Part shown: positions 1 through 23,867 of the stretch, piece by piece
Layout of the letters: the number at the start of each line of letters is the position of its first letter
How positions within the stretch are numbered: the stretch's first letter is position 1
Origin: Amphirosellinia nigrospora
Lineage: Eukaryota > Ascomycota > Sordariomycetes > Xylariales > Xylariaceae
NCBI GenBank assembly: GCA_004123355.1
Contig: SCHM01000001.1
Location: forward strand, 10,116,193-10,180,192
Length of the DNA stretch: 64,000 bases
Reading direction: 5' to 3'
Translations under genes and position numbers: made by a program
Notes under the pieces: generated by a model
What the model was told of the DNA's origin: nothing
Seen by the model: only the letters and a program-made list of their open reading frames with translations
The model's database searches: none

Positions 1-951
1 GCTTCTTCAAGGCCACTTCGTACTTGTACGTCGTCACTATCCCATCCTCCATACACGTAGCTGACTGCCTGTTGATCTCCTTGATCTCCTTGCGACCGAG
101 CTTCACCAGCTCTTGAGCGTTGGTGTCAAGATCGAAGCGCACGAGCTCGACCTCGATGGGCACGGTGGCGTTGAAGAACAGAGGAACAGTAGCCACCGGA
201 TGGTTAGGGCTAAGGCAGTACGGGTGTCGCTCCGGGTTTAGAAAGGCAGATCTACACAGTAAAGCCAGTTAGCGAATGCATGCAGTGTGATTTCACGGCT
301 GCGGGGTCTCATACCCTTCAGGGAGGATGTTAATGATCTGCTTTCCCATGATGAGGGACGAATTTTGCAAGATGCTGGAGAGCTTGACGTTGTGCTCGGA
401 AATGGCCATTTCTTTGTCATAGAAGACCTTTAGCACGGCCAGCAACCAGCCCTGGAAAGGCAACGGGATGTTATACATCAGCCACCAATCCGAGAATACG
501 GCGAAGAAGAAGGCGACAAGAACAAATTCGGACGATAGCTCCAACCAGGGTATCCTCAGATGGGGAGGGAGAATAGGTAGATGCCATCGATCAAGGCCCA
601 TTTAAAGAAGTAGGTGGCGTGTGCGCCATTGTCCTGGACCTGCACATAATCGTACAGCCGCCATGCGAACAAGGCGACATAGACGGCGCAGGCGTAGAAG
701 CGTTGAGTGGGCGCGTCGATGATGGTGAGAGGAATCAAGGGCTGGCTCTCTGGAGGCGCTGGAACATCATTTTGGGGCGCGGGAGGCAACGGGCCTCTGG
801 GCCGCGGATCGCGACCGGCGCCGGCGCCGGCGGCGGTAGTAGGTGCCCGAGCGGGGTTGGGAGTGGTAGCAGCAGGGGCCCGTTGTCTGATGCTGGCGTT
901 TGGTGTATTGGGGAAGCCGCCTACACGGCCACGCGGCGTTTCGAGACTCAT
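1..951 (-). CDS. POM152: Nucleoporin POM152, N-terminal part (gene runs off the left edge)
   Basis: POM152 is the membrane ring nucleoporin that anchors nuclear pores; its N-terminus is cytosolic or pore-side and its long C-terminus is lumenal. The ATG at 951 gives MSLETPRGR, followed by a Pro/Ala-rich disordered stretch of about 60 residues. Three hydrophobic segments follow (around [26 protein letters not shown] and [15 protein letters not shown]). Then come the family landmarks [31 protein letters not shown] and, after an intron at 252-314, [16 protein letters not shown] and [16 protein letters not shown]. Spliced across the intron the product reads [12 protein letters not shown], as expected for the family. 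The frame breaks at the G-run 562-565: one extra base there would join SLP to LRIPWLE. The lumenal Ig-like repeats lie outside the window. The identification comes from remembered family sequence, with high confidence. Confidence 0.9.
252..314 (-). other. Intron of POM152
   Basis: On the minus strand the intron begins GTATGAG and ends TGTGTAG. Removing it restores the conserved [12 protein letters not shown] junction. Confidence 0.8.
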
Positions 952-2378
952 GGCATTCCGTGATAGCGACAGCGACAACAGCGGCGCAAGACGTCAGTAC
1001 GTACGCCTGCGTGGTGACAGGCTACGGCGGTAGAACAGCAGAGACAGCCGAGATTAGAGCAAGAGATATGCCGTTTGGAAGTTATCTCGTGCTTGGAACA
1101 CGCCGCGAAGTGTGCGGGCAAGTGGTTGCTATCAGGCGGGTACAAATGAAGCCCAATTTTTGTAGTGTAAATAAATGAGATGCCGCAGTCTATGTTCATA
1201 GCGGTAACGCTGTGGGGTTCAAAGTCGCGGCGCGTCAAGCGTCCAATAAAACACCAAAGAAAAAAAAGAGTTATCCCTGCACGGATGGGTGTTAGCGTGT
1301 GAGCCACAACAGCCACCCCCACTAAAGCTATCTAGAAAGCTACGATAGGGCATATCTATGTGTTTGATTGGAAGCCTAAGCCAGCTAGCCGTGCTTCTGA
1401 CGTTTGATAAATACCTACCTAAAGCATGCTCTATTATACATTTCCCGTTCTCTGTCATAACCCATTGCTTTTCAATATTCCCAGACTCATCTGCAATCGA
1501 TCTGAGAGTTGTCTCTTCAGTTGTGTTGACCTTATTATTTAGCTTGTCTCGCCCATCATCTGTAATTCTCTTTGAGTAAAACTAAGTCGTCGTTATAACG
1601 ATACACCCTCCTCCAGGCATTTGGACCAGTCCTAGACTACCTAGGTACGCGCCTTGGCGCCTAGTTAGACTGAAACTCCGTATGCACATTATATTGAGGA
1701 TTCATAGGCTTATAGTTGCTAGCCTCTCTCCCTGATGGCTGGGGGTGCGTTCTTTGCGGCCCCCTTTTATCATCGTTGTTATTAGGACATCTGCAGGTGT
1801 ATCTTTATTCTCTAGTCGCATCACTGGCTGCGACCTCCTCATTCTAGATCACTTAGATCTAACCTTTGTTTATCTAGGCAGTCCAAGCAGCCTGGCATGC
1901 AAATCATGAGAACCAGAGTATGGCTGATATGATAAATAAATTGTAGCCTCGCCTATCTCTTTGTGTGTTACAACGCTTGTCTGGTAAATACTATCAGCCG
2001 TGCAAGCCTCCATACACTTCCGCCTTCACCAACAACTACAACGACGACGACGCATTGACCACACCCGTAATGTTGCGATGCTATATTTTATGAAGCGGAT
2101 AGCATTGCACGCAGGTTTTCGTTATTCGAGCAAAACCCGGCATACTGTGAAGAGGTGACGTCTATTTATCGTGCTACCTTTTGCGACGGAAGCCGCTTCT
2201 CAATATCGGCCGGCGAGGCTATTTTCTTGCCACCTCAGGAATGAACAGTCCATAGCTATCCTTCACATCCTGATGGTTTCATGCCTCACCCCATTAACAA
2301 CGTCCTGATATCAGCTACGACATTCCACATCATCTAGCCCGCCTCGCCTCCCCACAAGACATCCATCATTCACCAGTC
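952..2378. other. Divergent intergenic region between POM152 and the UCH gene
   Basis: About 1.4 kb separates two divergently oriented starts, so both promoters must lie here. I see no convincing gene. Short open frames on both strands have no recognisable motifs. The stretch just before 2,379 is pyrimidine-rich, typical of a fungal 5' leader. Confidence 0.5.
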
Positions 2379-4037
2379 ATGGCCGCTTTCGAGAATAATG
2401 CACCGGCCACCAATCCTGATGACCTGCCTATGACTAACGGGATCCGCCGGTCGGGCAGGGCTAAAAGGGTGCCTATGAAGTATGACGAAGAATGCATAAT
2501 TCCTTCTGAGAAAGCCAAACCGGCCAAAATCACTACAATCAAGACCGACAGACCTAAACGGAGAGCTGCGGAGGCTGCTCGACAGCAGATGGTCCCCGAG
2601 GAGGTCGCCACTCTTCAAGAACAGGTATTTGCCCGCATGGATATCGATGAGCGCCAGGAATACCGTGGGTGGGTTGAGTTGGAATCTGAACCCGTGAGTT
2701 TCTGACTTGCCAAAGTGGCTCACTCTTCAATTCACTAATAACAGAATAGGCTTTTTTCAACGCCATGCTCCAGGATCTTGATGCAAAAGCTCTCAAGGTA
2801 CAAGAGGTATTTGCACTAGACAAGGCGACTCTAGCAGAACTGCCGTAAGTCTACCATTCGAATATCAAAGCGGGAGCACTACTAACTGGTCAGCAACCCC
2901 GTCCACGGCCTCATATTTCTTTACGGATGGACTAATGAAGACGAATCCAATGAAGCCCGCCAGGACTGTCCAGCAACCCTTTGGTTTGGTAACCAGGTAT
3001 GTGATAACTATCACTTCCTACCTATTCGAAGCTAACCGTGAATAGACCACTGCCAACGCCTGTGCTACTGTTGCCTTGATGAATATCATTATGAACGCGC
3101 ATGCCGTCAGGCTTGGCCCCGAATTGGAAGAGTTTAGACAGACAACTAAGTCGCTTCCCCCGCCTCATCGCGGGCATGCGCTTGATACCAACGATTTCAT
3201 CCGCGCTATCCACAATTCCGTTGCTCGGTAAGTTCCCAGGGGAGCGCTAGGCCGTTTTTCTAATCTGCTCCTAGTCGAAACGACTTACTATCCGAAGACC
3301 TACTACTTGATAATAAATTGGAGTCGGCCTGCAAAAGGAGGGCAGGCCCTGCCAAGAAAAAAAGAAAGACATCTAATACCAGCAAGCGAAACCATGAGCC
3401 AAGCGCATATCATTACATCGCCTTCGTCCCCGTCGATGGTGAGGTATGGGAGCTCGACGGTCTTGAAAGTCTGCCGCTTTGTCTGGGTAAGCTTATCAAC
3501 CCATCAATCACCCAATCCTTATGCTGAGAGCACCGGCTATCTTGTAGGTCCCTACGCGCTCGATGGCCCTGACACCTGCTCCACATCGCCAGCAAAGCCA
3601 TACAGGACGCATGAGTCGACAGGACGACGAATACCCATCCTTCAACTTACTAGCTGTCTGCCAATCGCCCCTCTAACGCTCTCGCAAGGCCTCGCGAAGA
3701 GTCTCGCGACGTCCGAGGCGCTCGGCGTCAGCGACGTGTGGAAAAGCTTCCCCGACGAGCACCTCGCGCGCTTCGGACTAACCCGCAAGCAGATCCTTGC
3801 CGAATTCCCTCCATCGTCACTGAAAGACGCGCAGGTGTCTACACCTGAGGAGCTGCGCGCTGAAACGGAGGCGCTGGAGGCGCAGTGTGTCGAAGAGGTG
3901 GCCGCCGTAGACGATGCCGTCGAGATGATTCGTGCACGACAGAGGGATTACACGCCTGCTATTCACTACTGGGTACGCGTGCTAGCCGAGAAGGGGTGTT
4001 GAGGGAGTTGATTCAGGAGACGGATTCGCTCGGTTGA
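2379..4037 (+). CDS. Ubiquitin C-terminal hydrolase, peptidase family C12 (UCH37/Uch2-like)
   Basis: This cysteine protease removes ubiquitin from the C-terminus of small adducts; UCH37-type members work at the 26S proteasome. The ATG at 2379 starts a basic N-terminal tail of about 100 residues (GIRRSGRAKRVPMKYDEE). The catalytic core follows: oxyanion Gln in LWFGNQ, nucleophile Cys in NACATVALMN, His in AYHYIAFVPV and Asp in VWELDG, so all four key residues are present. Introns that keep the frame are 2694-2749, 2845-2893, 2997-3045, 3238-3274 and 3487-3547. The C-terminus has the family pattern (RQRDYTPAIHYWVRVLAEKG, then VLRELIQETD). Three frame breaks lie near 3,608, 3,675 and in the G-run 3,993-3,996; one added G at the last restores the tail and the TGA at 4035-4037. 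The proteasomal role is inferred from the family. Confidence 0.85.
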
Positions 4038-5063
4038 GGGAGCAAGGCGTTGGCCACTCGTAGTCGTCTTTGGCTTTGTGTGAGGTGGTGATATATGCTC
4101 CTGGGCTATACAGTTACTACCTCGCTACTTAAGCTAAGAGAGCAAAAGGACTGGGACACGAGTAGAGGCGGGCGGGCACCGAGCTATTCCAGGTGCCTTC
4201 CACACAAGGGCATATTGTGCCTACATACCCACACTCCAAGGCGCAGCAGAACATACCACTTCCAGATCTGTATTTTCTATGTAGAAATCAGGACACTGGG
4301 CTATCTAGGTCCAACCCTCCGGGAAGACGCAGCGAAGTAAGCAGGCCTGTCTGGTCTAATATCCAGAGACAGAGACCCGAGCTTCACGCATAACTTTGGA
4401 ATTTGGGCTTTGAGTATTGGGAAACGACTTTGTATCACTACCTCACATTAACGAACATATAGAAGTAGAGTAACAGGGTCGCTAGCATGATAGGAGTGAA
4501 TGAAGATCAGGGGCGGCATATTCGCCCAGCAGATTTGGTATGCAAAGATAGATAAGATACCTAACCAAGCAGGAGACAAGCAGAACCCACTCTCCAACAT
4601 GCTCGATTTCGATAATGTATGAGAGTCTGGTATAAAAAATATTCACAATTTACTCCTGTTTGTTTCCAGACAGAAAGATTTTAACAATAGCTACCTGACT
4701 ACTTAGTTGCTCACAAGCATCCACAGCCAAACCAAGTCAGCATACTGAGGTGAACTACAACGGCTAACCGACCAAACCAATCACAGGGAAATATTTATCG
4801 CATTGTGGTACAGTAATCAAACCTACTCGTGTACATAAAATAACCATACGCAAGGGCGCCCCTCTATCTAAAGCAAAACCCCCACGGAAAACCCATCCGT
4901 AACATATCATTACGTAGCATCACGACCAATCCCGTGACAGCATACGCCCGCTCCACCATGGTATAATAAACATACACAGACTGTCCGTTCCCATGTCGCC
5001 GAGCTCCAGAAACTCAATATGTGTTGTGCCATTACTCTCCCCACCCCGCTCACCCAAGGAAGC
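4038..5063. other. Intergenic, convergent UCH / phosphatidylserine synthase
   Basis: The two flanking genes converge, so both 3' untranslated regions lie here. Small open frames show no recognisable protein signature. Nothing else is supported. Confidence 0.5.
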
Positions 5064-10224: not shown

Positions 10225-11690
10225 GGTGGCTTAATTGGAGCGAAATCTTGCGCGTCAGAGAGGAAAACAGGGGGGAGAATGCAATGCAATGCCAATGACC
10301 TTAAGAAATGTGCAATTTCGACAGATATAGACACAGATCCGGCGGAGAGAAGGCAGTCAGAGGCGTAGTAAGAGAGGCTGGAAAGAGACCAGCAACAAGT
10401 GTTGTTTCCTCTAGTTCAGAATGTATGGTGGGTTGTAGACCACAGGGGAGACACACCCCTCTGGTAACTATTGTCCTGGATACCAAGGAGCCACTGCCTT
10501 CTAAACACGCTGCGCGTCGCCAGTTGCGGCTCAGCAGCGCGGCTCAACAATTGTGGCCTCACGAAGAATTTCGACTTCGCGAAGCAGAGCAGTTCAACAG
10601 TATGGCTGTAGCGTGGCTGGTGGCTAACCTGAGCTGCTGTAGGGACAGCTCGGCGAATTGACGACAAGCAAACAAACGAAGGGCCGAAGCAACAAGGACG
10701 ATAGGACTCGCTGGAAAAAGTTGCGCTCGGTGCATGAGCTATAGTTCAAGAGCAAGTAGCGTCAAAAACAATCAGAGCATTTGTCAACAAAATAGTGCCA
10801 TTAACATTAATATAGGGACATGTCATAGGCCCGGCAGCCTGATGCTAGGGGAGGTTTAAAAGAAGAGAGAGCGAGAGACGGGATGCCAACTAGGACGATA
10901 ATTCTGAATATCGTGTTTTGATGAACAACGAGGAAGGTTGGCTCAACTCAACAGCCAACTAAGACCCAAGCCAACCATGGTCGCCAACAGGAACAACCTT
11001 ACTACTGTACCCAGCTCCTGTCGGCAACGGCACCAGGACAGACAAATGTGGATGGGAGTGATGGGCGGAAGGAGATGGGATTGTGGAGCTGTCGATCTAA
11101 GAAGCAGGTTGGAGTGAGGTAAGCTTGGAATACGGGTAATGACATGGGTCCGCCGGCAGCTTGCAGATGGGAATAGTGGACTGGATGCAGCGGATGGGAT
11201 GGGAATGGCACGCAAGCACGGTTGGGGCCGTCGGGCTCGCACAGTATGCCTTCTATACTGTGCGTGTGCTGTGCAGTACTGATGCTGGTGCTGAGTCTGC
11301 TGCACCTGCCTCACGGTCGCAGGTCTACAGTACACCGTCCTTGACTTGTCGGAAGATCTGTGAAACCCTCCGTGTGCACAGAACCAAGAATGACTGCCAA
11401 GAAAGAAACAGTCTGGTTAGTTAACGATGACGTCTTGACTCCCGGATCTGGTATCGAGATTGATTGGGCCCCACAAAGTTTCAAGCCAGTTGCTAATACA
11501 GTATGCGTAGATAGACAATGACACGACGATGATCTACGCTACCTACTGCAGACAGACATGGGCAGACATGGACATCACCCGGCTCTCGAAAATGGCACAC
11601 GATAAAAACGGCCGACGGGCCAATTGAAGCTACCGTAGCGGACAAAGGGGGTATACAAAATGATCATATCTAGGATTGCAAAAAATAAAA
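10225..11690. other. Intergenic region, no gene recognised
   Basis: This lies upstream of the jacalin/metallopeptidase gene and borders the AT-rich island. Several 60-130-residue open frames overlap on both strands with no family signature. From about 11,640 the composition turns steeply AT-rich. Confidence 0.45.
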
Positions 11691-11810
11691 AGTATTATAA
11701 AAAATAAAATTATCATAACATTATAAATTTTATAAAAATAATTATTATAATTTTTTATAAAAATAATTATTTTATTTTTAGTATAGCTAGCAATTTTAAA
11801 ATAATTTTTT

Positions 11811-11911
11811 TGACACGGAAAAACAGTGGGACCACACAGGTTGTGTGATCTAGCCCGTATTATAGGCTATATTGCAGATATAGCCCCACCTACCCCTAGC
11901 GGCCCGTGTCA
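11811..11911 (+). repeat. 101-bp terminal-type repeat, left copy (TGACACGG ... CCGTGTCA)
   Basis: The unit begins TGACACGGAAAAACAGTG and ends GCGGCCCGTGTCA, so it has 8-bp inverted ends and a TG..CA outline. The same 101-bp unit recurs in the same orientation at 20,391-20,491. The left copy keeps G where the right copy has A at most differences. A T-run abuts the left side (11,805-11,810) and a T-run also follows the right copy, consistent with a 5-bp duplication. It could be a short LTR or a MITE-like element. Confidence 0.7.
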
Positions 11912-12149
11912 AGTGCCGGCGGGCAGGAAATACGGCCATTGCCCTCAATGGTGGTCGGGACAGCAGCCTTACTGCCAGTGCTTCCGCGGCTGTTGACCAG
12001 CTGCAATCTGCAGCCACCGCACTAGTTGGACTTACTGCTACCTAATTGGCTGGACTTACAGACTTGGCCCACCAGGGCCCTGCACGCCATTTAACCCCTC
12101 CTTTCTACAGGGACCTAGATGGCACTGTTCCTAGTGGCAAATGAAAATT

Positions 12150-12240
12150 CAACGCGCCCGGGAATCGAACCCCCTGCCCCTGGTCTGGTGGGTTATGGCG
12201 CGCCACTAGTACTGTGCTACCCGCAATGCCGCTTGACCAC
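12150..12240 (-). repeat. tRNA-like Pol III promoter patch (possible SINE head or decayed tRNA)
   Basis: Read on the minus strand it holds GGTTCGATTCC (a perfect B box, near 12,160-12,172). About 37 bases upstream is TAGCACAGTAC, close to an A box. The predicted acceptor ends do not pair and the T stem has mismatches, so it is not a plausible functional tRNA. A tRNA-derived SINE head or a tRNA relic fits best. It lies in the non-RIPped patch. Confidence 0.45.
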
Positions 12241-12260
12241 AACGTATCGCTAGCTACCAT

Positions 12261-12437
12261 TTGACACGGAAATTTGGTAAAGGATACCTTGGGTAATGTG
12301 TGAAAGTCATGATTAATCTACGTAGTGGAGTGAATGCATACAATGGTCAATGGGCCATTGTGTGTTATATACCCACCCATAGGGTAGGGCCACGCAGTAG
12401 ATCCCTATAGGTCATAGCACCCTATGCCCTACTATGT
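12261..12437 (+). repeat. Second element with TGACACGG start and TGTCA end (177 bp)
   Basis: It begins TGACACGGAAA after CGCTAGCTACCATT, as the right 101-bp copy does, and ends CTATGTCA followed by AGTGCC. The left 101-bp copy is also followed by AGTGCC. The interior differs from the 101-bp unit. Composition is normal. It may be a related terminal repeat or a nested insertion. Confidence 0.4.
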
Positions 12438-15400
12438 CAAGTGCCCCCATACAAAAAGAACTATAGTGCTCTCACTATCCGTCATTATTTAATATATATA
12501 TTTGCCTATATTTTATTTCTTTTTGCGAGGCTTTCTGCGCTTACGCTTAAGAGCTTTCTGTTTACTAATAGAGTTATTTTTAGTAAGTATTTTAGGTTTC
12601 TTTCTATTACGTATCTAGTATTTTTTAATTAAAGTAGTTGCGCTTCATAATTGCTATTTAGAACGTTATTAGTTGTTTTTATAACTATATTTTTTTTATT
12701 TAACGAAGTAGTTATATTTTATTTTAGTACAATTTAATTAGTGTTTAAATATAGTTTCGATTTCGAAGGAATTATTGTTTTTTTACTGTTTGATTAATTG
12801 TCCGTAATAAGTCCGGGTATAAAAACAGTTCGGTAAAAAGGATTTTTTCTATCGCGTCTAAAAAACAAATAAACTATTAATATTATTAAATAAATATCGA
12901 AAGTTTTAAATAGATTTAATTTGTATGCTAATTTTTTATACGTTATTTTATTTTAAAAAGATTTGCTTTTTGTTATAAAAACTTTTTTAAAGGTTTTTTA
13001 AATAAGTAGTATTTAGTATACAAACATAAATAGATTTTATTTTTTTTGTTAAATTTTATTAATTTGTATTAGTTATAATAATGCTTAGCTTTTATAGTTA
13101 CGAAGTTTATAGCTAGTTTAACGTCCTGTTAAAAGTATGGCTATATTTGCTAGATTTCCGTATAGCTTTCGATTTTTTGTTAAATTATTATATTATTAAG
13201 TCCTAGGATATAAAATCTAAACAATTATTCGTATATTAACGATTTAATCGTAAATAAATAAGCATTATTTAAATTTTATTATAATAATATTAATAAATCT
13301 ATTTATTATTCGTTAAAGCGTTTAAAAGTAAAATATTATATAGCTATTTTAACTGTTTAGTTTTTACGTTTAAATAGACCGTTTTTTTAAGGATAGTATA
13401 CTATTGTTATTAATAACTATATGCTTAATTTTTTTTATATCTTTTTTTAGAAATTAAACATAAACTTCCGGTTTTTATTAAAATAATGTTTTTAAATATA
13501 TTTTAGTTAGTTAATAGTAGCATTTTTATTAGCGTAATACCTTAGTTTTTTATAATATATTTTTTGTTTTGTATAAACAGCGTTTTTTTAAATATATATA
13601 TATAATTATTATTATAAAGTTATAATATTTTTATTTTTATTGTTTATTTGCTAAAGGGTTTTTTTAAATAATACCCGGGGTAATTTTTCGATAAAATTAA
13701 TTATAATCGTTTTATAAGTTTAAAATCCTTAGGTTTAATTAGTTAATAGTCCCTGTGTAGCTTGTTTTAGCTAGTTATACATGTTTTATATACGTTGTAA
13801 TAATAAATGTATTTTTACTTTTTAGATTTTATAGCAATAGAATATCCGTCGAATTTTTATATTATTCTTTCGACGTTAAAGTAGTATTTTATCGTAAGCT
13901 AAACTAAGTACTTTTTTAATTAGGTTTTTTAGTATATATAAGTAATATTTTTTTATTTATTTATATTATAGATTAGCCCGTTAATAATTACGAAAAGATA
14001 CCTAGTACGAAAAAAATTTTCTATGCTTTTATAGGCTTTACTGTTGCATAGGTTATTAAATATTTATTTATACTTAACATTTGCTTTATAACTTGCCACA
14101 AATTAGCTCTTTAGTTCCGGGTTTATTACAGCTTTAGTGACTAGTTATACCTAGTTTAGCCTAAGTTTTTCGTTAGTACGTTTTATATTGCTTTTTTTTG
14201 TTATATTTGTTTATTATTACTTTTAATTAGCTAAATATATTAAGTATAAAATTTAGCTTTTTAAGCAAATAATAAACCTATAGCTTATATTACGAAAAAT
14301 AAACCGATATATTAATTAATTTATTATTTATTTTATCGGTAAATCTAATATTAAGGTTTATTTAGTTAAATATATTTTTTATAGCTAAATAATTTATTAG
14401 TACGATTATTAAGTTATAGCTAGCTTATATTATAATTTATAGCTGTTTATACGCTTATACTACGCACATAACTTCCATTTCCGAAGGTCTGTATTATATC
14501 TCCGGTTAAAATAAACATTTGCTAAAAAACATAATTAGCAGTATTTAAGTATTAAAGATTACTTGTTTTAGTTTTTATACGTAACCGTTTTTATATAAAA
14601 TATTATAATTTTAAAACCGCGTTTTAACAAAACATTATATTTATAAATAACAATTTGTCCGGGTTATAGTAATATAATATAGTATATTTATATATTAGGT
14701 TTTATACCGCCTAAAATAACGCTTTTTTTACTTCGGTAAGCTTATAATATATCGACTTATAGTACGCTTATTTTTTCTTAGGTTCTTAACTAGTACTTTG
14801 TTTAAAACTCGCTTTTTATTAAGCAATACTATTTTCCGTTTTTATAAAAGTTTTATATATTAAGTATAATATAATAAAAACGGTTATAAAAACCCGCTAC
14901 TTCTAAAATATTATTTTAAAGCCTTAAGTTAATTAAAAAAAGCTAGGTTTTAAAAAGCTACTAGTTATTTTTTAATAATAAATAGTCCTAATCTATTAAC
15001 TTTATACCCTAAAAGTTCTATAAAAAAGTATCTAAAAAATAACTTCTTAAGTAAAAAAAATATACGTTTTTTACTAAAAAATCCAAAAATAATCTATAAT
15101 TATTTAATATAGTCTTTTTTAGTATTAAAAAATATAACTATATTATTAATAAAAGCTTTATAAAACTCTTTATATAATTTTAAGAAAATATTTATAAACT
15201 TTTATATATATATAAATAAGTTCTAAAAACTTATTAACGCTATTATAAACTTTTTAAGTTTTTATAAATTTATTATAAATCGGTCCTTATAATTAAAATA
15301 TATTAAAATTAATAAAAAAATAAAATAGCGTCGACTGCTATTATATATAGTTTACCCCGTAATAATAATATAATTTCTGCTTATAATAATAACAAATAAT

Positions 15401-18400
15401 TGTTAAATATTACTACGCGATTTATTGTTTGTAGGTCGACTATAGGTTTACTTTTCTTAACGCTTTTAATAACTTTTTAAGTAATAAATATAAAATACGC
15501 GAATAAGGTTAGTTTTTTAACCTATTTTATACGTTTTTACGCGTATAGTTTATTATTCATTTTATCGAATATTTACGGTTACGCGTACTAAAAAAATAAA
15601 AGCGATTATTAAATTTATATTTTTGCTAATTATTTACTAGCGGTATTTTTATTTGTTTTTTTTTAAAATATCGATTACTTTTTAATCGCGCTAAATTTCT
15701 AAATATTCTTTAATAATTTTTATAATTTTTTTATTTATAACGCCTTCCTTTATATATATAAACTACTTATCCGGGGCTATTATCTCCGGCATTTCAGAAA
15801 GCTTTTTAATTCCGAATATAAAATAAACTTTATATATTTTAAGTTTATTATACTTTTGTTCTAGTTTTTATTCCTCGATTATATTATATACTTAATTAAT
15901 TAATAATATATCGTTTTTATTATTAGTTTTATATAATATACCAGTTTTATCAAACAGGTTTATTAGTTTATCAGTACTTATACTTATATTATACGTTATT
16001 ATACTATAAATATTTTTATCGCTATAGTTTTAATCATTAAAGTCACATCGAACTTTTAGTTTATATAATAAATATCCGGAATATTAATATTATTAAAGTT
16101 ATAATTAATTATTTTCGATTTATTAGTACTACTTAGCGCAAAAGTTAGTCCGTTTATTATTACTATAACTATAACTGCTACGATATATCTTTTTTAAATA
16201 GCTTTTAAAAAATTAGTATTTTTTTATTCATTAATATAACCTATACGCGTACTTTTACGGATTTTTTTCGCATAATAATAAGTTATTTAGCACAATTTAA
16301 AATATTATACTAAACCGTATTATTAACGCTACTTTATTTTTATATATAAAATCGAACGTAAAGTTTTTATTAAAAAATAGTAGCTTATATACAGCTAATA
16401 TAATATATATTTCGCCTAAAGCTAGCTTAATGTTTTTTTTTAAAATTATTTTTTTTTACAAAAATATAATCTTAATACTATTTAAAAAATACTTTAAAAT
16501 TTAAATATTCCTAAAAAATAACTTTCTTACTTAAAAAATCGATTATTGCCTTACTAAAATATAAAAAACTATTATTTAATAATATTTATAGCTCGATATT
16601 TTAGTCTAGTATTTATATTAAGCGCTTATATTTTAATAGTACTAGGTTTCTTTAGGCGTTATTTCTAAAAAAGTAAAATATAAAAATAGCCTATTTTTTA
16701 TATATCATTCGTCCTTTGCCTATTCCGCGCATTTTTCATATTTATAATACTATAATATATTCAAATATATTTAATAATTTTTTATAATAATATTTCGGCT
16801 TATCTTTATATCGAAACATACAATAATATTCGGGCTTTTTTTTATTCTTTATATTATTACCTTAAAATAAGCATACAAATATATTAAATCATCCTTTCCT
16901 TACGCTACATTTCTAACGTCCGGTACTTTACAAATAATAAATAAAATCTTATCCTTATCGCTTTTATCTTCTAATATATTATTTCCGTCCTTAAAATCGT
17001 TTATATCTTTTAAAACGTTATTATTTTTAACGCTTAATAGTTTATACTTTTTACTAATATATTATCAAGTATTTTATAAGCTATAAATATTATTTCTTTA
17101 TTATTAAAAGCGCTATAGTCTTTTAAATATTTAAACAATTTATTTTTAAATATAAATAATATATAGTATTTATTATACGTTCGTCGCGAAAGATTTATTA
17201 TTTTCAGGTTTAAGGATTCCGGGGGGCGTTTATAATAATAGCGTACATATTTTTATTTTAGCTTCTCAAAATCGAAAGTTTTATCGCAATATTTATAAAT
17301 AATATTTATATTTATAATTATAAATATAAAATCTTCGTTATTGCTATTACTTAATAATAACTTATTAAAAGTTAAATCGGGATTAAAATTATCCAAGTTA
17401 GCAAAATATATATTTTTTTTTTTTAGCTTTTTATACTTTCTTTTACTTTTATACTCTTTTTCGCTTTATTATAACCTTTTTATTTTTCTTTTTTTTCTCC
17501 GCGTTTTTTTTTTACTATTTTTTATCGTACTTTTTTTTTTTCTTTTTTGCTCATTTTAAATTATTATCGCTATCGCTAAACTAATAATAAAATCTACATT
17601 TCTTTAATAAACGCTTAATATACTTATTTCGCTTTACCTTATATTTTTTTTCCTACTAATATATAAATATATATCTTTTGCAGCTATTAGCAACACTAAT
17701 CTTTGTTTCGCTACGTATATTATATACTCGCTTAATTTTATATTTATATTAAAAGCATTTAAAAACTTCTTAATATTAAATTTTATAATAGTTTAAATTT
17801 ATATTATAATTTTATACTAATTAGTATTATTTCACGTTATATTTTTATAGCTCTAGCGTATTTTAATTTCTTTTAAATAAACGTTATTAAAGCCGATTTA
17901 TCGTACGTTAAATTTTTTAATATAAAACTAAAAATATTAAACCTTTCGGTTACTATTACTAGTTATATTAAAAATCGTTTTATAAAACGTTTAATAATAC
18001 TATTTAAGCTTTCGTATTAAAATTTTTAACGTTTAATATTTATTAGTTCGTTATTTTATTATAAAATAGCTAGTTTTCCGAGTAATATTTAAAACATAGC
18101 TAGGATTTATTATACGTTATTCTTAACAGTTCTTTTATCTTTAAAAAAAAAGTTAATTTTTTTAATAAAGCAATAAACATTAATAAATATTAATTATATT
18201 TTTCTACTACTATCCCTACGTCTTACAAATCTTTTTTATAAAGGTTAAATTATCCTATATTGTTTCGTTTAATATAATAACCGCCATAAGACCTTAAGCC
18301 CGTCAAATATAAAAAATAAAGCTTCGTTTTAGCAAGTTATTAAGATTTCGCGGGTTATATATCAGTAATCTTAAAGTTCGTCAAAACGGACCTTTTTTAT

Positions 18401-18985
18401 CGTTATTATCGTCGTTAAAGTCCCCTCCTAAGTCCGGGGCTTTTTTAGCCTCCCGCAAATACATCGCGGATCTTTAGCTACATGCTTAGTTAAACTAATT
18501 ATATAAAGTTAAATATAATAAAAAACTATTTATATTTAATCTTTATAACCTAAATCTTAATCTAATAATAAATACTATTAAAAACTCGGTCGTTATTTAT
18601 AATATATTCGGCGTAAAATATACTTACCTATTACTAGCTACAGGCATTAATACAAAAAAAATACTAATACTAATAAAAGTTAGCTCTACATAATTGTAGT
18701 TCCGAACACAAACACGCTAAAAGTTTAACCGTTTATTAATAAGCTAAATCTTAATATTTAGCCTATATACTAACCGAAGCTTAACGCGTTAAATTAACTT
18801 TATTAATTAAATTAATTATTCTTTAGTAATATATAACCGGTTTATTATAATATTATATCTATTTACGTTTTTAGTTAAAACGTATTCCCCTTTAATATTT
18901 TAAGTTTTTTTTCTAATGTTCGAAAAATTAAAACAAATAACGCTTATATGCTTTTTTAATTTGCCGGACTATATCCAAGGTTAAA

Positions 18986-19065
18986 AAATATATATATTAA
19001 ACAAAAGTTACTTTATCTTAATCCAGTAAATATATATATTAAACAAAAGTTACTCTATCTTAATG
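18986..19065 (+). repeat. 42-bp direct tandem duplication inside the island
   Basis: Two neighbouring copies, offset by 42 bp, share AAATATATATATTAAAC and the following AAAAGTTACT(T/C)TATCTTAAT with one visible difference. Such tandem duplications can arise after RIP. Confidence 0.7.
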
Positions 19066-19883
19066 CGGTTATAAATATTATAAGACTTATATATAATTAA
19101 ACTTACTTGCTTTTAAAGTTTTATATTATTTTAATTACGCTATCCATATAGTCGATAAAACTCTCTATATATCCTTAATAGTTATTTAGTTAGCTATTAA
19201 TATTTCCGAACATTAAGTCGGTTTTTTTTAGTACTTTATTTTTTACAAAACTATATACTTAATAGCTATAAAAATAGCTACATTATTACCCTACTTTTTA
19301 ATTCTTTCTAATAAAATTTTTAAATATTCTTATTATTATTAATATCCTTTTATTTTTAAAATAATATTACTTATTCGAGAAATTACCCGAAATTTATAAA
19401 TAAAACTATCCGTTAACATAAAATTTTTACTTTATTAACTTTCTAAAAAAAAGCTTTCAAGTAATTAGCTTCCCAATCGTTAGTTTTCTAACTATTAATC
19501 ATTATTAAAATAGTCCAAAAAATCCTATTAGTTAAACATAATACTAATCAAAAAAAGTTATTACTTAATATAAATATCCAAAATAAATTATATTAATAAA
19601 ATATTATATCAATAAAATATAATAAAAAAAAAAAGTAAATAAATAAAATAAAAAAAGAAAATAAATTTAAATTAAATCCTATTTCTAAGCTTGCTTAAAT
19701 ATCCGTTTATTCTTAGTTGCCATAAAAAATATCTCTACTTAAAATATTGCCACCTTAAGCATCCATAGTACTAAATACGCGGGTCCTCGCGTTCGGACGC
19801 GTTTCTATATATTAATTTTTTTCTATAGTTTTAGCGGTTTATAATACAAAAACAATAAATATAAATTAAATATCGCGGCAATT

Positions 19884-19908
19884 CGTAAAGTTTTAAAAAA
19901 TAGCTACG
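19884..19908. repeat. Constant-loop hairpin unit 1
   Basis: Stem CGTA (19884-19887) pairs with TACG (19905-19908) around the 17-nt loop AAGTTTTAAAAAATAGC, which looks like a C-to-T changed version of the consensus. Confidence 0.55.
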
Positions 19909-19938
19909 GCCACTAAAATATTTAAATATTATTAATTA

Positions 19939-19961
19939 CTCAAGTCTAAAAAAACAGCGAG
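19939..19961. repeat. Constant-loop hairpin unit 2
   Basis: Stem CTC (19939-19941) pairs with GAG (19959-19961) around AAGTCTAAAAAAACAGC. The next outer pair is A-C, compatible with a RIP-changed G-C pair. Confidence 0.5.
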
Positions 19962-20172
19962 CTTTTTCTAAAGTATAAAATATCCTAGCAGTTTTAAAAA
20001 TAAAACTAGTAATGCTTAACTATAAACATCGGCGTTACGTTTCCACAACCTAAATATAATATTATTAATAAAATAAACACAGCTATCCCGGAATAGATTT
20101 TATATAAAAAAGTATTTTTACTTAGCTATAATAAATACTACGCTTATACTTTTAAATAATGCCCTATTTTCG

Positions 20173-20201
20173 TCGAAAAAGTTTAAAAAAACAGCTCTCG
20201 A
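20173..20201. repeat. Constant-loop hairpin unit 3
   Basis: TCGAAA (20173-20178) faces TCTCGA (20196-20201) around AAGTTTAAAAAAACAGC. Five of six positions pair; the exception is an A-C mismatch, expected from one G-to-A change. Confidence 0.6.
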
Positions 20202-20223
20202 GTTCTACAGGTCGTAAAAAAAG

Positions 20224-20249
20224 TCGGAAAGTCTAAAAAACAGCTCCGA
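20224..20249. repeat. Constant-loop hairpin unit 4
   Basis: TCGGA (20224-20228) pairs with TCCGA (20245-20249) around the 16-nt loop AAGTCTAAAAAACAGC. A G-T wobble extends the stem outward. Confidence 0.65.
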
Positions 20250-20282
20250 TCGATCTTACGATAGTTAAAATAACGTCAGTAC

Positions 20283-20312
20283 CTACGAAAAGTCAAAAAA
20301 ACAGCTTCGTAG
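20283..20312. repeat. Constant-loop hairpin unit 5
   Basis: CTACGAA (20283-20289) pairs perfectly with TTCGTAG (20306-20312) around the 16-nt loop AAGTCAAAAAAACAGC. This is the longest stem of the set. Confidence 0.7.
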
Positions 20313-20390
20313 TATCGACTCAATCCTGGCCACGCAATGCTTAGCCGTAAGTATTTAGGTCGAATTAATCGTTTTTCGCTAGCTACCATT

Positions 20391-20491
20391 TAGCACGGAA
20401 AAACAGTAAGACCACACAGGTTGTATGATCTAGCCCGTATTATAGGCTATATTGCAAATATAGCCCCACCTACCCCTAGCGGCCCGTGTCA
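20391..20491 (+). repeat. 101-bp terminal-type repeat, right copy, partly RIP-mutated
   Basis: It is the same 101-bp unit as 11,811-11,911, in direct orientation. I count about seven differences; all but one are G-to-A relative to the left copy (for example GTGGG to GTAAG, TTGTGTG to TTGTATG, GCAGATA to GCAAATA). That bias is the RIP signature. Before it stands CGCTAGCTACCATT, which also precedes the related start at 12,261. Confidence 0.7.
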
Positions 20492-20787: not shown

Positions 20788-20847
20788 GGGGTTTTATCCC
20801 CCCATTATTAGGGTATTTTCTGCTTGTAAAATCATTTTGAAAAGCTA

Positions 20848-20907
20848 AGATTATTTTGGGCGAAAATAATTTTGAAATTTGAAAATAATTTTCGCCCAAA
20901 ATAATCT
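20848..20907. repeat. Perfect 20-bp inverted repeat with 20-nt loop
   Basis: AGATTATTTTGGGCGAAAAT (20848-20867) is the exact reverse complement of 20888-20907. Weaker pairing (GAAAAG/CTTTTC and TTTTG/CAAAA) continues outward on both sides to about 20,835 and 20,920. Cruciform or MITE remnant. Confidence 0.8.
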
Positions 20908-23867
20908 CGACTTTTCAAAACTAGGTTATGATTAATGTGTTTAAAAATAGTTTTGATTTTTCACAAGAATCTCTAGCATTATTTCCTAAACCCCCCTGGC
21001 CCGCTACGGTAGTTGATCTGGTGGGGGTTTGAAACACATCCTTGAAGGACCCAACGACCTACATATATGATAGACCTGTGCATCCCTTATTAGCCCACAG
21101 GCTTGCGTGGAGCAATACGAAGACACTTTTCTGGAGGGTGGTAGTGGTTCGGACCAAGGTGTGCACAACGACCTTAGAGTACTTAGTAGATGGAGCAAAG
21201 TGCGGCATTGGAGGTACGCATACTCGCACGTCCCAGCAATCACCTATCTGTAAGGGTCACTTTCGCCGACCACTGCTGTCGATGTGGAAGTGCAGTTGTT
21301 GATGTTTATGATGTGATAGGAGAACAGGCTGTAACTTGGTTTATTTCTACCCTAAGGCTTCCTTGTTTTGGACTGGTTCTACCTAGGTAATTATTGCAGC
21401 AAGCTTGTTTACTCATAACAGTGGCGTCAGGAAAAAACCGAATGGCTGGATCTTTTTGGGTCTTGTTACCTGTGAGTAAAATTGAGGATCCACTACCTAA
21501 ACAGTGAATTGCGCACAAATATGCGCATCATTGATCGGGCAAAGTGAAGAGAGGAGTTACCCGATCGGATAGGTATTTAGCCTTTGAAGAACTACCTAAC
21601 CTCTTCACACATTCAATAAGGTATGGAACGAGCCGCTGCGCATGCTGAAGCGGCCCGGCAAATGCTAGTATAATTAGCACCATGCTGAAAGACACTCCAA
21701 TCATGATATGATGCAAAAAGCAAGATAGAGGGATAGCCCCTGGTGCCCAATACATACATAGAGTAAAAATCAGAACCGGCTACACAAGCCGGTGAGAATT
21801 GTCAAATGTGACGGGCTGTAACACATGCCAAAACTGCACGTTGCTAAGTCCACCTCAGCTGCTAATATTGCTCGTAAGCAGCTTATCACACGTTTAATGT
21901 GGGTGAATGTACGATAAAATAATAAACTAAGGCAGGTCGACATTGGAAGTGCCAAACCAGCGTGTTTACTACGTTTAACATATTTGGCCATCTCGGCCAA
22001 TTAAACAGTATAAGGAGGAGAAGGCGCGGATCCGGTCAAAGAAGTTTGACAATTGACGTCCAGTCGCATGGTATGGGGTCGTCGGTAGGGAGTCTGGCAA
22101 GCTATTACTATCTTTAATATCATGTCATTGTCCAAATCAATATTGTTATTGCTTCTCACCTAGCCAATAAAGTAGCAAAAGAGACTGAGGTTGGGTACAA
22201 AAAAATGGTGAGTATGTCTACGCATTTGACCATGAAAAGCTTCAATGTGAGCTGGTGCCACTTATACAGCATATTTAAACGCTGAACCCCACCACGAAAA
22301 GGAGGGAAATTTTCTACACTTGGTGTTTCGCCTAGCTGATCTATTTTCAGGTACCCCAAAATTAGCGACATGTTCTTGAACTCTACGATACGATCTGCGA
22401 TCTTGCGCCTTCAAAAATTAAAGAAAAAAATTTCGCTATTATTAAAGGTAACGCCATCAATAATATTAACCTTGGCAGATTTTAGTATGGTTATGAGATG
22501 GATTTGTATAAGAATTCACCTAGGATCGCAATGTCTTTCATCGTAGTGATCGCAATGAAGACTACATGAACATTTGTGGCTTAGCTAGCCCAAAGACTCT
22601 TTGGGCAGCGTTAAAGAGCTTGCAGAAAATAGTGGACACGGCTTAGTCGTCAATAGTCTCCCAGCATGGCTTTAAATTGCTGGACTAGAAATGGATATCA
22701 TATCAAGACACTGTACCTATGTCGGTAAGTAGGCGCAAAAGATTTTTACAGGTAGTTGGCAAGACAATACCTTTCTCATGGAGAAGTTGTATATTGTAGT
22801 AAAGGGAGACGTGTCTACCCCCTTTCCTTGGTGAAAATATGTAGTTGGTATACCGAAGATAGACATTAAGTGGCATATATATTATTTTCCAAGGAAAGTA
22901 TGCCATGGACAATACCTACAGCGCTTTAACATCGAGGTAGGTGGACTGTTTGTTGTACGAGATAGCTATGAAGAGACAGAATCGAGATAATAATAATAAA
23001 AGAAGGGAGAAACAATGATGTACTTGTAATTTTATGACTGGGTATTGGGATAGGCTTAGTTTAGTGTGTATAATATTTATATGTAAACCTGGAATGATTC
23101 AGGGGCTCCATGAGGAGTTATGGATTTATCGAATTGACTTTGAGGTTTGTTTCTCTGCTGTTAATGAGTGAGGGTCTGGTGCTCCCTTGATGGGACTGGG
23201 AAGCCTGCGCTGCAGCAGCGGTCTGCCACTGGACTCCCGAGCTGTCGGGCTACCACCTAGGCAAGCACCACTTGGCAAACACAGTGGGTCCGAGGGAGCT
23301 GAGCTCAGGCTTAAAATGATCAATTAATGACAGTCATTGGTCACACGGCCTGGTTGTCAGAGGAATGAGATGTTCCAATAGGCAATAACCCATAGCCCTG
23401 GCCAGGCGGGTTAGCCGTACCTGTTAGCAGTAACCGTTAGGGCGCTTGCTGGCTTCGCTCGCTCACTCTTCCACACCCTATTATGCCATTGTGACTGAGA
23501 TTCGAGACCGAAAAACTCACGAAACCGCTGCCTCCTCCTTCAAAGTAGGCTCTCCCACAGCCAACTCAGCAGCGCAACTGTCGTCCTGTCCTTGCCTCTG
23601 CAGACTCTCTTTCATGCACCCACAGACCCGTTGCGCCGCCTCTGTCTCCGACCACGACTACAGGCCAACCACATGGTTCACGAGCCAACGAAGCGGCCCC
23701 TCGCTGACACCAACAAGCGCCGGACCAGAAAACCGACCCAATCAGTCCTATTCTAAATCTTGCCAGTCTCTTTTTTATATATTAAAAAGAATACTGATCA
23801 CTACTCGACGGCCTGTCATCGGCGGCAATAATTCTGAACGGGTGCACTCCCGTCTAGGAAAACGACC
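20908..23867. other. Gene-poor stretch; includes the 5' leader of the Whi5-like gene at its right end
   Basis: No open frame above about 100 residues with a recognisable signature is found before 23,446. A short GATCGGG/CCCGATC hairpin lies near 21,533-21,567. From about 23,450 the pyrimidine-rich sequence is probably a promoter and leader. A 145-residue open frame at 23,446-23,883 overlaps the real ATG in another frame and lacks homology signals that I recognise. Confidence 0.45.

Follow-up and report, generated by a model that had tools for sequence, protein, structure and literature searches.

A regular array of six hairpins in the probable leader of a RIP-degraded LTR retroelement of Amphirosellinia nigrospora

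On the minus strand of a 64-kb stretch of Amphirosellinia nigrospora DNA (the window, by which we mean the whole of the stretch analyzed), six hairpins lie between positions 19882 and 20311, each with the same tip and each with a differing, self-matching stem. The array is real and beyond chance, well defined and unusually regular, and it was seen in one family only. It is very probably the structured leader of an LTR retroelement, a region in which such elements generally carry signals for the packing and copying of their RNA. That kind of structure is known; what is new is a regular array of six hairpins with a shared module and differing stems. We regard it as evenly balanced whether the array is a 5′ leader RNA signal of a Ty3/gypsy chromodomain element, probably a multivalent Gag-binding site.

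Six hairpins in two leader copies

All units follow one plan when read on the minus strand: a variable outer stem, an internal loop of two nucleotides against one (YU opposite U), a constant 4-bp GUUU/AAAC helix and a loop of 3 to 4 nt. Units 1 (20284..20311), 2 (20223..20250), 3 (20173..20201), 5 (19983..20010), 6 (19936..19964) and 7 (19882..19910), all on the minus strand, scored 31.8, 33.4, 37.3, 21.6, 30.0 and 33.9 bits, respectively, with covariance model R1, which was built from the twelve units of the window and of a second leader copy, so that these scores are self-matches. Folded alone, units 2, 3 and 6 adopted the shared structure and unit 1 approximately did so; unit 5 took a different fold, and unit 7 formed its outer stem only, no better than shuffles (0.68). 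Uninterrupted outer pairing in the window units extends over 5 to 8 pairs with G.U included and 1 to 7 with Watson-Crick pairs only. Rfam (4227 families, gathering scores) gave 0 matches in the 64-kb window.

The original prediction had described at least five copies of a core, each with its own paired flanks, and all five are present in the positions given for them. The degenerate sixth unit that it suspected is a genuine one, unit 5, whose homologue in the second copy carries a clean GTTTCTTTAAAC core. It described the core as a constant loop, but the loop is not fully single-stranded, since the conserved 4-bp helix lies inside it. The A-run noted in the core is present in the window but is not constant: in the second copy the middle of the core is GANG or similar and varies from unit to unit, and therefore the constant A-run of the window is partly a product of RIP.

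This second copy was found by searching the genome with the array DNA, which matched one other place, C6:2225834-2226272, at 70% identity. The reverse search with a longer C6 stretch returned the same two leader places and five places that match its LTR end only. Two leader copies only were found in this genome, one of them heavily RIPped. Specifically, the window leader has RIP indices of 1.51 (TpA/ApT) and 0.42 [(CpA+TpG)/(ApC+GpT)], and the C6 copy has indices of 1.0 and 0.79 with a GC fraction of 0.475. The C6 copy spans ∼620 bp between its two primer sites and contains all six units, one-to-one with those of the window and in like order, with successive spacings of 65, 35, 184, 48 and 56 (61, 49, 191, 46 and 54 in the window). 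Its six outer stems show uninterrupted pairing of 3 to 7 pairs, and two of them are interrupted by a mismatch or bulge. Thus, even where RIP has destroyed an element, its structure can be recovered from a derivative with fewer mutations.

The pairing is specific to each unit. When left and right flanks were reassigned among the six window units, the true joining was the best of all 720 assignments; among the seven core-like sites of C6, one of them without a stem, 3 of 5040 assignments scored as high with Watson-Crick pairs and 6 of 5040 with G.U, the true one included. Covariation was measured on the six C6 units, against a structure derived from those same units; alignments A2 and A3 omit the stemless seventh site, and a C6 hairpin without the core (unit "4") was also left out. 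In these six units, 87.9% of cells pair, compared with 66.5% in shuffles (0 of 500 as high), and the covariation score is 0.600, compared with 0.188 in shuffles (0 of 500) and at most 0.176 in slid controls. Cells changed on both sides number 13 (4.8 in shuffles; 1 of 500 as high). There are 13 pair types (8.2; 7 of 500), and a both-side change is seen at 6 pairs (3.6; 23 of 500). Once the window units were included, the covariation score and the paired cells remained at 0 of 500, whereas the number of pairs with a both-side change was reached by 166 of 500 shuffles and that of pair types by 116 of 500. The window rows are not independent, because they are homologous to the C6 units and RIP can hit both arms of a stem.

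A blind search for hairpins with similar loops on different stems led to largely the same units. In the C6 leader it returned a set of six, which included five array units (at most 2 in 20 shuffles), and in the window leader a set of seven, again with five array units (at most 4 in 20 shuffles); one array unit was missed per leader, and the non-array hairpins included were one for C6 and two for the window. From nine further leaders that have this primer site came sets of one to two only, and the design is absent from them.

The retroelement around the array

The array lies beside a primer-binding site, TGGTAGCTAGCGA (20376..20388, minus strand), which over 13 nt is exactly complementary to the CCA-bearing 3′ end of the initiator tRNA-Met encoded by this genome itself and is situated 2 nt after a 98-101-bp LTR. 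In the window, the first hairpin begins 77 nt downstream of the start of this site; overall, the units set in 77 to 79 nt downstream of it. A genome search for the tRNA 3′ end gave 34 matches with at most one mismatch (control, 24), five of them exact, and ARAGORN called tRNA-Met(cat) at all three of the exact loci examined, one with an imperfect anticodon stem. We take the A1-U72 pair, the AUCGAAA T-loop and the GGG/CCC anticodon stem to mark the matched tRNA-Met as the initiator. An earlier candidate for the tRNA-Met gene, chosen by a D-arm pattern, showed no tRNA at the locus checked (L089). Of the 11 loci examined, 10 contain the same primer site. It is found there 12 times in total; two of the 12 are the C6 copy itself, and 5 of the 12 come after sequence ending in CAAT. 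Direct repeats CGCTAGCTACCATTT were considered as marks of a tyrosine-recombinase element and dropped, the repeat being the tRNA-Met primer site. Its position beside the primer site places the array in the leader of a retroelement whose sense strand is the minus strand. Of the options raised at the outset, an RNA-level structure near the end of an element is therefore the one that the context supports, the array being in the 5′ leader, beside the primer site and on the minus strand. A different hairpin, with arms CAAGG/CCTTG, was seen in three other tRNA-Met-primed leaders (L065, L069 and L071), apparently twice in L071; its stem is constant, unlike those of the array.

Downstream of the leader, the RIP-degraded retrotransposon body occupies approximately 12440..19770 on the minus strand, as judged by RIP indices and by reverse-transcriptase and DNA similarity to a copy on C9. 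Between 12600 and 19800 the body has 20% GC and RIP indices of 1.33 (TpA/ApT) and 0.34 [(CpA+TpG)/(ApC+GpT)]. Remains of a reverse-transcriptase domain (15051..15500, minus strand), compared as a 150-residue X-marked piece, match C9:404375-404821 with 47% identity (E 2.4e-29), and several body stretches align to the C9 copy at 63-82% DNA identity. In the C9 relative, a reverse transcriptase (RVT_1, E 2.2e-13) was recognized in one X-marked reading of three and a chromodomain (SH3_Tf2-1 and Chromo) in a single ORF piece of five; the relative also has the motif FIDDIVIF. The window body itself (P0001-P0003 and two pieces) had no Pfam match, a PDB sequence search with P0001 and P0003 returned nothing, and a regular expression for a CCHC zinc knuckle found none in the C9 copy, which is itself broken. 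The C9 element is framed by 71-bp repeats of 93% identity (C9:408758-408828 and 411790-411860), with the primer site there after CAAT. Its similarity to the window ends before the leader, and the hairpin core was not seen in it. The host of the array thus appears, from these domain matches, to be a Ty3/gypsy-type chromodomain LTR retrotransposon, the gypsy label coming from the SH3/Chromo pair.

The LTR of this family is 165 bp long, has TG..CA ends and lies at the 3′ end of the window element (12275..12439, minus strand). Six copies were found by script: four solo copies have 5-bp target duplications (CTTAA, TTCAT, TATAT and AAAAT), and two body-attached copies have none. A further, RIPped copy, additional to these six, lies at C6:6823340. 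At the 5′ end the family LTR is absent from both leader copies, and in the window the different 98-101-bp LTR is found there; both copies may therefore be recombinant.

Possible functions of the array

We propose that the array acts as RNA on the minus strand, the strand being assigned from the element context, with Gag as the partner and packaging or dimerization as the outcome. The element would be transcribed from the minus strand, placing the array in its 5′ leader RNA, where each hairpin would present the same apical module (YU/U, GUUU/AAAC and a short loop) on an interchangeable stem. Together, the six hairpins would give the Gag of the element itself a multivalent site to bind, and Gag binding would lead to the genomic RNA being selected, dimerized or packaged, near the tRNA-Met start of reverse transcription. 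We place a Gag or packaging function for the array at somewhat short of an even chance. The full proposal, in which six apical modules on freely exchangeable stems are the Gag-binding and packaging signal of a Ty3/gypsy element, is plausible but distinctly tentative.

Three lines lead us to favor a multivalent signal for Gag binding, packaging or dimerization: the need of Ty3 for 5′ sequence in cis, a hairpin pair in murine leukemia virus, and the retention of the array in the C6 derivative. According to the passages of a 2016 review on which we draw, Ty3 can do without nucleotides 429-4979 if the proteins come in trans, and the initiator tRNA-Met is its essential primer (PMC4974528). Ty3/gypsy (Metaviridae) chromodomain elements, yeast Ty3 included, resemble the element described here in their initiator tRNA-Met primer, reverse transcriptase, chromodomain near the 3′ end of the body and cis-acting 5′ region. 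Ty3 differs in that the same passages describe no repeated-hairpin leader for it; they call its RNA structure uncharacterized and the packaging sequences and Gag-binding sites of Ty1 and Ty3 not precisely defined (PMC4974528). Murine leukemia virus has two leader hairpins that share a tetraloop and contribute to the stability of the dimer (PMC5874298). These gammaretroviral hairpins, SL-C and SL-D (GACG tetraloop), are like the array in being leader hairpins with one shared apical sequence and a link to dimerization (PMC5874298). They differ in number, two rather than six, and in what is shared, which is the tetraloop in SL-C and SL-D and the internal loop and helix here, where the loop is mostly free. 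In MS2-type RNA viruses, hairpins that bind coat protein offer the same recognition module on different stems and are spread over the coding genome; the likeness lies in the one module on different stems, and the array differs in being clustered in a leader. The excerpts of open-licence literature that we searched describe no hairpin array of this design. As for the third line, the C6 derivative is too short for gag-pol yet keeps the array, as expected of a cis-acting signal served by helper proteins, although retention in this single derivative may be due to chance. The derivative resembles a TRIM in being short and having a primer site, a leader and an LTR end; it has no 5′ LTR of its own and an LTR-like 3′ end of only ∼53 bp, and is thus an incomplete TRIM.

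If the proposal holds, the array would be a compact, sequence-defined packaging signal for the Ty3/gypsy group, also kept by a short parasite copy. Because six natural repeats of the module reveal which letters are fixed and which need only pair, the question of how Ty3/gypsy elements choose their own RNA becomes one for a direct binding and deletion test.

An alternative, which we consider unlikely, is that the hairpins have no part in packaging and control translation instead, steering ribosomes between the primer site and gag (by shunting, internal entry or braking). The location of the array between the primer site and the body agrees with this, as do the few AUGs of the C6 leader, 2 in sense compared with 9 in antisense. 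However, the depletion of upstream AUGs is not significant (2 compared with an expected 3.9, and as few in 0.20 of shuffles), a six-fold identical apical sequence is not needed for such control, and the array is kept in a derivative that could not encode gag-pol.

The array might instead act as DNA, its units being cruciform or palindromic sites to which a protein of the host or of the element binds in transcription, silencing or integration; we think this quite unlikely. The stems are self-complementary on both strands: folded singly, 10 of the 12 units beat 95% of shuffles on the sense strand and 7 of the 12 did so antisense. With antisense wobbles, 1 of 720 flank assignments in the window and 11 of 5040 in C6 score as high, and the summed pairing run in C6 is 33, compared with 30 with sense wobbles, so that pairing alone does not choose the strand. 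Nor do the G.U wobbles of the window serve as evidence for the RNA strand. The original prediction had noted an A opposite C and called it a mismatch of the RIP type; the mismatch is there, and on the minus strand it is a G.U wobble. Between the two leaders (19880-20380 compared with L010), C>T changes on the sense strand affect 66 of 110 sites outside the units and G>A changes 22 of 77, with corresponding values of 11 of 26 and 4 of 26 in the outer stems and 8 of 18 and 2 of 8 in the core. RIP is thus strand-biased throughout the leader, and we discarded the wobbles as an indication of strand; the lower C>T rate in stems was likewise set aside as a sign of selection, the sites being too few. 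Against a DNA-level site, a double-stranded target would be expected to conserve sequence, whereas the outer arms are free in sequence and keep their pairing, which a single strand fits better. The asymmetry of the YU/U loop also fits a single strand, and whole-leader folding modestly favors the sense strand (z of −2.0 for C6 and −1.5 for the window, compared with −0.7 and +0.1 antisense; 30 shuffles each). The earlier suggestion of protein-binding sites in the DNA therefore retains the self-complementary stems in its favor and loses ground on their free sequence.

A small mobile hairpin that inserts itself, also suggested at first, would account for a repeated unit with paired flanks, but it is largely refuted and very improbable. 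The exact core, CTGTTTNNNNAAACT, has 21 matches genome-wide, compared with 15 for the reversed control, and three of these are array units, with uninterrupted flank-pairing runs of 7, 5 and 3, the last interrupted by one A.C and followed by three more pairs. The other 18 (one in the window body, 17 at other loci) have outward runs of 0 to 4, the same as random flanks, which argues against a dispersed mobile hairpin. Plus-strand core patterns with one mismatch likewise occur near or modestly above control counts (25 compared with 24, and 15 compared with 7), and the order and similar spacing of the units are kept in both leaders. Comparing core flanks genome-wide with controls had been put forward as the check that could overturn the prediction; read to the letter, it shows that most cores lack paired flanks, and we take these as chance matches. 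When the window and 19 loci (152 kb) were searched with the covariance model, it found the twelve units from which it was built, and the next match had an E value of 0.16. Within the scope of these searches, this leader is the only place where the array occurs. A C8 element (L041:1501-1548) has a single CTGTTTCATCAAAC core ∼20 nt past the end of the primer site; this core has no paired flank, and we took it as a coincidence rather than an array unit.

Finally, a by-product of RIP and low complexity, in which A/T-rich repeats pair by chance, would suit the strongly RIPped window leader, since loops become alike under RIP and G-C pairs become G.U, but it is refuted by the less RIPped C6 copy, which has the same units with unit-specific covariation, and is the least probable reading of all.

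Composite arrangement of the locus

Both leader copies are framed by primer-site sequences, in the order primer site, leader, (body), LTR, primer site (window 12247-20391; L010:1498-2140). In the window, the 98-101-bp LTR upstream of the hairpin leader (20391..20491, minus strand) belongs to a second, TRIM-like element and matches 11809-11911 at 94%; the other copy of this LTR is at 11811..11911, and the second copy of the primer-binding site, which is that of the TRIM-like element, is at 12247..12259, both on the minus strand. Such a composite would arise if a one-LTR circle recombined with a primer site already in place. TTTTT is found on both sides of it, a T-run and hence weak as a target duplication. 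A short duplicate of the 98-bp LTR end (12263-12274), between the 165-bp LTR and the second primer site, falls outside the circle-recombination account.

The TRIM-like element (11811-12274 and 20391-20491) has, besides its tRNA-Met primer site, an internal GGTTCGATTCC box, which matches the consensus of the Pol III B-box; ARAGORN found no tRNA in the 64-kb window. A RIPped copy of this element is present on C6 (L067). Around the composite lies an outer inverted repeat (11630-11702 and 20940-21012; 73 nt, 71%), possibly from an older DNA transposon, and a palindrome with two 43-nt arms occupies 20835-20920.
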